This document shows, piece by piece, positions 13,210 to 14,143 of a DNA stretch of 36,001 nucleotides. Position 1 is the stretch's first letter, and every line of letters starts with the position of its first letter. The notes below the pieces were generated by a model. That model saw only the letters and a program-made list of their open reading frames with translations. It did no database searches and was not told the DNA's origin. The translations under genes were made by a program, and so were the position numbers. The DNA comes from Desulfovibrio sp. (GTDB lineage Bacteria; Desulfobacterota; Desulfovibrionia; Desulfovibrionales; Desulfovibrionaceae), in NCBI GenBank assembly GCA_031273845.1, contig JAISRC010000042.1, forward strand, positions 1-36,001, read 5' to 3'.

Positions 13210-13345
13210 GGGAATGCGGCAGGGCAATCGAATGAAAAAATATAACAGCTTGAAATAACAAGAATTTTTAAATCAGGACGTCAAAAAATTTATCTTGATA
13301 TTTCAATGGATTGTCAGATTCATGCGATTGCCCTGGGGAATGCGG
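13210..13345. mobile_element. 116-bp miniature element with inverted ends and 10-bp direct repeats
   Basis: The core, 13220-13335, starts CAGGGCAATCGAATGA and ends TCATGCGATTGCCCTG: 15 of 16 positions form terminal inverted repeats. It is flanked on both sides by GGGAATGCGG (13210-13219 and 13336-13345), a perfect 10-bp direct repeat. The interior is AT-rich, unlike its surroundings, and has no ORF. This is the layout of a non-autonomous transposable element with a target-site duplication. A 10-bp duplication would suit IS4-like transposases, but the family is not proven. It sits between napH and the promoter of the RNA-binding protein gene. Confidence 0.75.
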
Positions 13346-13354
13346 ATTTTCACG

Positions 13355-13440
13355 TTGACGCAACACAAAAAAATGTGCTAGGGCTTTTGCGACCAAACGC
13401 GCTGTTTCGGCAGTCGGTTTGCCGGAGACTACAGCGCGTT
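13355..13440 (+). promoter_or_regulatory. Candidate promoter and stable leader hairpin of the RRM gene
   Basis: TTGACG at 13355-13360 is a good -35, but the -10 region (TGCTAG, about 13376) is poor. The downstream hairpin is clear: AACGCGCTGT (13396-13405) pairs perfectly with ACAGCGCGTT (13431-13440), with an inner CGGCA/TGCCG stem. It would lie at the start of the transcript, about 30 bases before the start codon, and could control stability or translation of an RNA-binding protein gene. Confidence 0.5.
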
Positions 13441-13469: not shown

Positions 13470-13745
13470 ATGGCAAAGTCTTTATATGTGGGCAATCTGC
13501 CCTGGTCGGCAACGGAAGAAGAGGTACGCAACCTGTTTGCGGTCCACGGCAGCGTAAAATCGGTCAACCTGGTCAGTGACCGGGATACAGGTCGCGCCCG
13601 CGGGTTCGGTTTCGTTGAAATGGAAGATGAGGACGCTCTTAAAGCGGTGCAGGCACTGGACGGTACGAGTTTCGGCGGACGCAGTCTGCGCGTGAACGAG
13701 GCACAGCCCAAACAGCCGCGGTCTCCCCGCCAGGATCGTTACTGA
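13470..13745 (+). CDS. Single-RRM RNA-binding protein
   Basis: A 91-residue protein with one RNA recognition motif and a short basic tail (PKQPRSPRQDRY). RNP2 is LYVGNL (residues 5-10) and RNP1 is RGFGFVEM (44-51), with the aromatic residues that stack on RNA. Such small cyanobacterial-type RBPs are often cold- or stress-regulated, which is family knowledge and not shown here. The ATG at 13470 is preferred: GAGAGGA lies nine bases upstream and the protein begins MAKSLYVGN as in relatives. It stands alone, with a hairpin leader before it and an intrinsic terminator after it. Confidence 0.93.
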   Translation: MAKSLYVGNLPWSATEEEVRNLFAVHGSVKSVNLVSDRDTGRARGFGFVEMEDEDALKAVQALDGTSFGGRSLRVNEAQPKQPRSPRQDRY

Positions 13746-13864: not shown

Positions 13865-14022
13865 TAGGGCAGGTATTTTTTTTAAAGTTACTCTGCCCTA
13901 GAGTGCTTTACGCTTGAAATTGTCGCTTACGGCGGGCAAAGCCCGCCTGCTCCAATCTCGCGGCAAGGATTTGCCAGCAAATCCTTGCAGAGCAGTATAC
14001 ATTTTCAATGTTAATCTGCCCT
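13865..14022 (+). repeat. Mosaic hairpin repeat, modules X-Y-X
   Basis: Module X (TAGGGCAG...CTGCCCTA, 13865-13900), then module Y (13900 onward, AGAGTGCTTTACGCTTGAA, with the GGCGGGC-AAA-GCCCGCC stem and a perfect 12-bp palindrome GCAAGGATTTGC/GCAAATCCTTGC at about 13963-13988), then a second X ending CTGCCCT at 14022. The Y-X part aligns over about 120 bases with 7397-7522. Confidence 0.75.
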
Positions 14023-14024
14023 AA

Positions 14025-14143
14025 GGCAATTTGCTTTGGGTCGCTCCCTCCGGCGTTCGACTGACGAAACGCGGTTCCGTCTGCGACTTCGGGGCAGGCG
14101 GTACCGCTTCGCACTTTCGTTGCCTGCTCTAAAACCCTGAGTT
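14025..14143 (+). repeat. Mosaic repeat, module Z (diverged)
   Basis: Starts GGCAATTTGCTTTGGGTCGC and includes GGCGGTACCGCTTCGCAC. It is a diverged relative of 7761-7890 and directly follows the X-Y-X block. No gene is visible in 13795-14277. Confidence 0.55.

Follow-up and report, generated by a model that had tools for sequence, protein, structure and literature searches.

Anatomy of the element

The window (the whole stretch of Desulfovibrio sp. DNA analysed here, 36,001 nucleotides) carries, upstream of a gene for an RRM-domain RNA-binding protein, a short sequence with inverted ends enclosed between two direct repeats. Is this a transposon and, if so, which transposase would move it? An earlier note had proposed a miniature element with inverted ends and 10-bp direct repeats, and all of these are present: the inverted arms (CAGGGCAATCGAATGAA and TTCATGCGATTGCCCTG) extend over 17 nt with one mismatch, and the direct repeat GGGAATGCGG agrees at 10/10 positions (Table 1). 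The element, at 116 bp far below the length of a transposase gene, encodes nothing. We are confident that it is a non-autonomous transposon (MITE) of ISAs1 type, mobilised most probably by an ISAs1-family transposase.

Table 1. Features of the element and of the neighbouring RRM gene (window coordinates)
Feature	Position	Strand	Basis
Left target-site duplication copy, GGGAATGCGG	13210-13219	.	Homologous position in relatives holds one copy
MITE, ISAs1-type, non-coding, 116 bp, 32% GC	13220-13335	+	About 40 relatives in the genome, 25-copy alignment, families in other species
Left terminal inverted repeat, CAGGGCAATCGAATGAA	13220-13236	+	Identical tips on ISAs1-family insertion sequences
Left subterminal box, TTTCAAGCTGTTA, motif TTTCARNNNNTTR, IHF-like	13243-13255	-	Motif count over 110 ends
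Right subterminal box, TTTCAATGGATTG, same motif as left box	13301-13313	+	Motif count over 110 ends
Right terminal inverted repeat, CAGGGCAATCGCATGAA	13319-13335	-	Identical 16-bp tips on complete 1271-bp insertion sequences
Right target-site duplication copy	13336-13345	.	10/10 match to the left copy
TTGACG, presumed -35 of RRM gene	13355-13360	+	Conserved upstream of RRM genes in relatives
RRM-domain RNA-binding protein, 91 aa, neighbouring gene outside the element	13470-13745	+	Pfam PF00076, 2.7e-22

Copies and target duplications in the same genome

A whole-genome search with the 116-bp core, as the earlier note had suggested, returned 45 matches, some of them the reverse match of one palindrome, which correspond to about 40 distinct sites with a full or partial relative; the nearest other copy is 94% identical. 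The 10-mers flanking the 26 full-length copies agree at nine or more positions in 19 cases and at all ten in 13, and the repeat has a different sequence at each copy. As a control, the left flank of each copy was paired with the right flank of different copies; agreement never exceeded 7/10, so that none of the 650 pairings reached at least 9/10. Because the copies' own flanks match (19/26) and the mismatched pairings do not (0/650), we read these sites as many independent insertions, each with a 10-bp staggered cut. With about 40 copies in hand, the pairing of element and flanking repeats is therefore not a product of chance. Target-site preference is weak, with G at the first duplication position and T avoided at some others, and a strong target motif was rejected since no position reaches more than 0.31 bits over 31 sites. 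Open frames spanning the copy sites are long even at a clearly intergenic site, the window's own, and so do not tell genic from intergenic copies.

The earlier note had also set the element apart from another repeat family, correctly, as a separate family starts near 13.9 kb. This second, larger family (window 13899-14025) gave 64 genome matches (282 first-look candidates), many copies being 87-94% identical over ~125 bp, and several contigs terminate within it.

Insertion sequences with the same ends

The 16-bp tip CAGGGCAATCGMATGA (allowing at most one mismatch) occurs in 10 of the 17 close genomes searched. Two of these, G008 and G009, are species of the same genus, where the tip starts ISAs1-family insertion sequences truncated at contig ends, the first frame of which reads MAERLSIAIIEHFEDMPDPRQQ. 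The source genome itself has a decayed relative of this frame on contig 96 (MSERISIAIIDHFQDLPDPRQQ) and a frame-broken element on contig 136, both matching the ISAs1 model NF033564. In that genome (93% complete, 191 contigs) we found the broken pieces on these two contigs and no intact ISAs1 element bearing these ends; the lack of an intact transposase source in an incomplete genome weakens the claim of current mobility, not that of type. In another genome (G005:C92), a 625-bp remnant has the same ends, between which lie broken ISAs1 transposase pieces; its flanks show no matching target duplication.

The earlier note had further proposed looking for insertion sequences that combine these ends with a 10-bp duplication, and a genome scan retrieved, from bins of Azonexus and Novosphingobium, complete ISAs1 elements of 1271 bp that carry these tips and are flanked by the perfect 10-bp duplications CGTGAAGCCC and GCCAGTGAGA. 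Their transposases match NF033564 at 1.6e-120 and 6.7e-118, and that of Azonexus, the one tested, also matches PF13808 and PF01609. The two elements (L189:3170-4440 and L209:3694-4964) have 18-bp identical ends and are 76% identical to each other; their bins belong to different proteobacterial classes. It is because the same ends, with identical 16-bp tips, stand on ISAs1 insertion sequences in G008, G009, Azonexus and Novosphingobium that we file the MITE as ISAs1-type. ISAs1-family elements duplicate 8-10 bp of their target; the duplications are 10 bp in the window, 8-10 bp in the MITE copies of relatives and 10 bp in the complete insertion sequences. The interior of the MITE is unlike that of the partner insertion sequences, and a simple deletion derivative of those seen was rejected on this ground.

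Judging from these shared ends, mobilisation would occur in trans. An ISAs1-family DDE transposase, encoded elsewhere, would recognise the 16-17-bp ends (CAGGGCAATCGMATGAA), cut the element out and join it to staggered nicks 10 bp apart, the repair of which would leave a duplication of 10 bp, or of 9 bp in some hosts.

A family of near-fixed length in other genomes

The same tips bound elements of 111-116 bp in G002, G006, G008, G017 and G140, and in Candidatus Adiutrix Kf353_bin84; several of the host records are Desulfovibrio sp. bins (Nm470_bin82, Roe453_bin138, Iy174_bin20 and Iy174_bin55). The middles of these elements are unlike that of the window copy. The ISAs1-type MITE family thus keeps a near-fixed length (111-116 bp) across other Desulfovibrionaceae and Candidatus Adiutrix. 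The family is new, the kind of element known. The open-access literature searched, which has partial coverage, yielded no description of an ISAs1-type MITE in Desulfovibrio, and the present family adds one to bacteria for which none was found described. A scan of IMG/VR with the end-plus-box pattern (see next section) gave no match.

In Candidatus Adiutrix the duplications are of 9 bp rather than 10 bp at 4/4 copies (L185, L197, L202 and L203). Adiutrix is a termite-gut symbiont, and this together with the bin names suggests an insect-gut setting. At one locus (L147, G017:C17:4700-5200), a MITE at 196-306 with the duplication CGGGCATTGT is followed 125 bp further on, at ~431, by another end-like sequence flanked by CAGGCATTGT; the insertion may be nested or in tandem.

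Conserved subterminal boxes

The 13-bp motif TTTCARNNNNTTR, read towards the tip, lies about 23 bp inward from each tip. With at most one mismatch the motif is found at 105 of the 110 ends of 55 full-length elements and in 4% of shuffled stretches, the 110 ends not being independent since the copies are related to each other. For most of the 55 elements the box played no part in the selection, which went by overall similarity or only by the tips; the pattern used to gather the Adiutrix and G140 elements contains part of it. In the motif, positions 1-5 hardly vary, A or G stands at position 6 in 102/108 boxes and at position 13 in 106/108, and positions 7-9 are free to vary. Between families whose middles can no longer be aligned, the box persists. 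At 18 of the 19 ISAs1-type ends compared, which have identical tips, the best match to the box has 2-5 mismatches. Betaproteobacterial hits from the genome scan were rejected as evidence on the box, because these insertion-sequence ends had been chosen by a pattern already containing TGAAAT.

The motif agrees with the published IHF consensus, WATCARNNNNTTR (PMC9820253), at 8 of 9 specified positions, the sole departure being T instead of A at position 2 (104/108 boxes). Six DNABII (HU/IHF) loci are present in the source genome, none scoring above the curated himA or hip cut-offs. We postulate, as a plausible idea somewhat short of probable, that a host protein of the IHF/HU bending type binds the two boxes and folds the element during transposition. 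Such folding would account for the conservation of length and boxes alongside a diverging middle.

The boxes could instead be a second binding site of the transposase, which we consider possible but rather less than an even prospect. Their fixed distance from both tips and their near invariance would fit any protein that contacts the ends; however, the box is mostly missing from ISAs1-type ends with identical tips, which the transposase must also recognise. From this comparison of ends, we would slightly favour the host bending protein. Extending the host-protein reading, we offer tentatively, and as an unlikely rather than an expected outcome, that the ~115-bp MITE lineage has evolved, just inside its ends, a mirror-image pair of host-factor sites which the insertion sequences supplying its transposase lack; that an IHF/HU-type bending protein would fold its ends together and make it a better substrate than its parent; and that the lineage has passed between distant insect-gut Desulfovibrio and Candidatus Adiutrix. 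Boxes and fixed length together offer a testable case of a transposon's parasite improving its ends with a host-protein site, and the conserved boxes are the single feature worth a bench test.

Boxes and interior also bear on the family of the transposase. Neither is common to the ISAs1 elements compared, and the source genome has no intact ISAs1 partner that we found, as would be expected if a transposase outside the ISAs1 family moved the MITE and the ends were the same by chance. We regard this as very improbable, given that complete ISAs1 elements share 16-18 identical end bases and the same 10-bp duplication, and that ISAs1 pieces lie between such ends in G005, G008 and G009.

Comparison with known elements

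The published ISAs1 member ISArsp11 has ends CAGGGCTGATGCAAAGTCG (CAGGGCTGATGC...) and the 10-bp repeat GGAACAGCAC (PMC6305408). The element described here resembles ISAs1 insertion sequences such as this one in ends that begin with CAGGGC and in a 10-bp target duplication, and the insertion sequences with matching ends encode NF033564 transposases. It differs from them in its length of 116 bp, in encoding nothing, in its interior and in its paired subterminal boxes. Correia elements (NEMIS/CREE) of Neisseria are likewise short, palindromic, multi-copy MITEs, often near genes, and for one inserted at mtrCDE a bona fide IHF site has been reported (PMC10969869); they have other ends and another size, whereas the present element has two IHF-like boxes, one per end, and an ISAs1-type mobiliser. 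QMITE1 of Coxiella, which carries an IHF-like site (PMC5896051), and Chunjie of Geobacter are MITEs too, present in multiple copies and equipped with inverted ends and direct repeats. These differ in size, at ~400 bp for QMITE1 and 178-235 bp for Chunjie, and ISAs1 is not mentioned in the sources that describe them (PMC5896051, PMC10969869).

The insertion site at the RRM gene

The description of this locus in the earlier note as a clean transposition footprint is borne out by the copy number, by 10-bp duplications that differ from copy to copy and by the RRM promoters of relatives, which lack the insert. In other species of the genus, the RRM genes have the promoter-like TTGACG and no element, and the target position holds one copy, AAATGCGT or AAATGCGC. 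When the window flanks are joined with a single GGGAATGCGG, the repeat aligns to one AAATGCG(T/C) sequence in these relatives, at the same distance from TTGACG, the comparison being one between different species. The orthologous site, which the earlier note had wished to see compared, is thus empty in relatives, with a single AATGCG-containing sequence at the target, and no filled site at the RRM gene, which that note would have counted against transposition, was present among the related genomes examined.

It is extremely improbable that a conserved regulatory RNA, or a hairpin acting in cis on the RRM gene, is flanked by the repeat by chance: the element is an extended imperfect palindrome, for which a 23-pair consensus hairpin is predicted from the 25-copy alignment, but both sides have changed in 0/23 pairs with a covariation term of about zero, the only Rfam match is to a microRNA family and sub-threshold (20.2 bits against a gathering score of 100), copies sit at unrelated places between different 10-bp repeats, and the RRM promoters of relatives do without the element. 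A structured regulatory RNA, which the earlier note had named as an outcome that would speak against its reading, was rejected on the first two of these grounds, the lack of compensatory changes and the sub-threshold Rfam match. For annotation, the implication is that neither the 10-bp repeats nor the hairpin in front of the RRM gene should be entered as regulatory features without tests.

The footprint had been placed 10 bases before the -35 of the RRM gene. The adjacency holds and the distance does not, as 9 bases separate the end of the duplication from TTGACG; the right subterminal box lies 41 bp upstream of this hexamer. An influence of the element on the RRM gene, as suggested in the earlier note, is conjectural. 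No sigma-70 promoter using TTGACG at this position was scored.

A paralog of the RRM gene on contig 156 (L045, G000:C156:6300-7400), 79% identical at the DNA level, also has a ~115-bp MITE copy upstream, in the opposite orientation and without a target duplication. This copy ends 19 nt upstream of the paralog's TTGACA, the same offset as in the window. This would fit two separate insertions into one position, and also a single ancestral insertion that was inverted afterwards.
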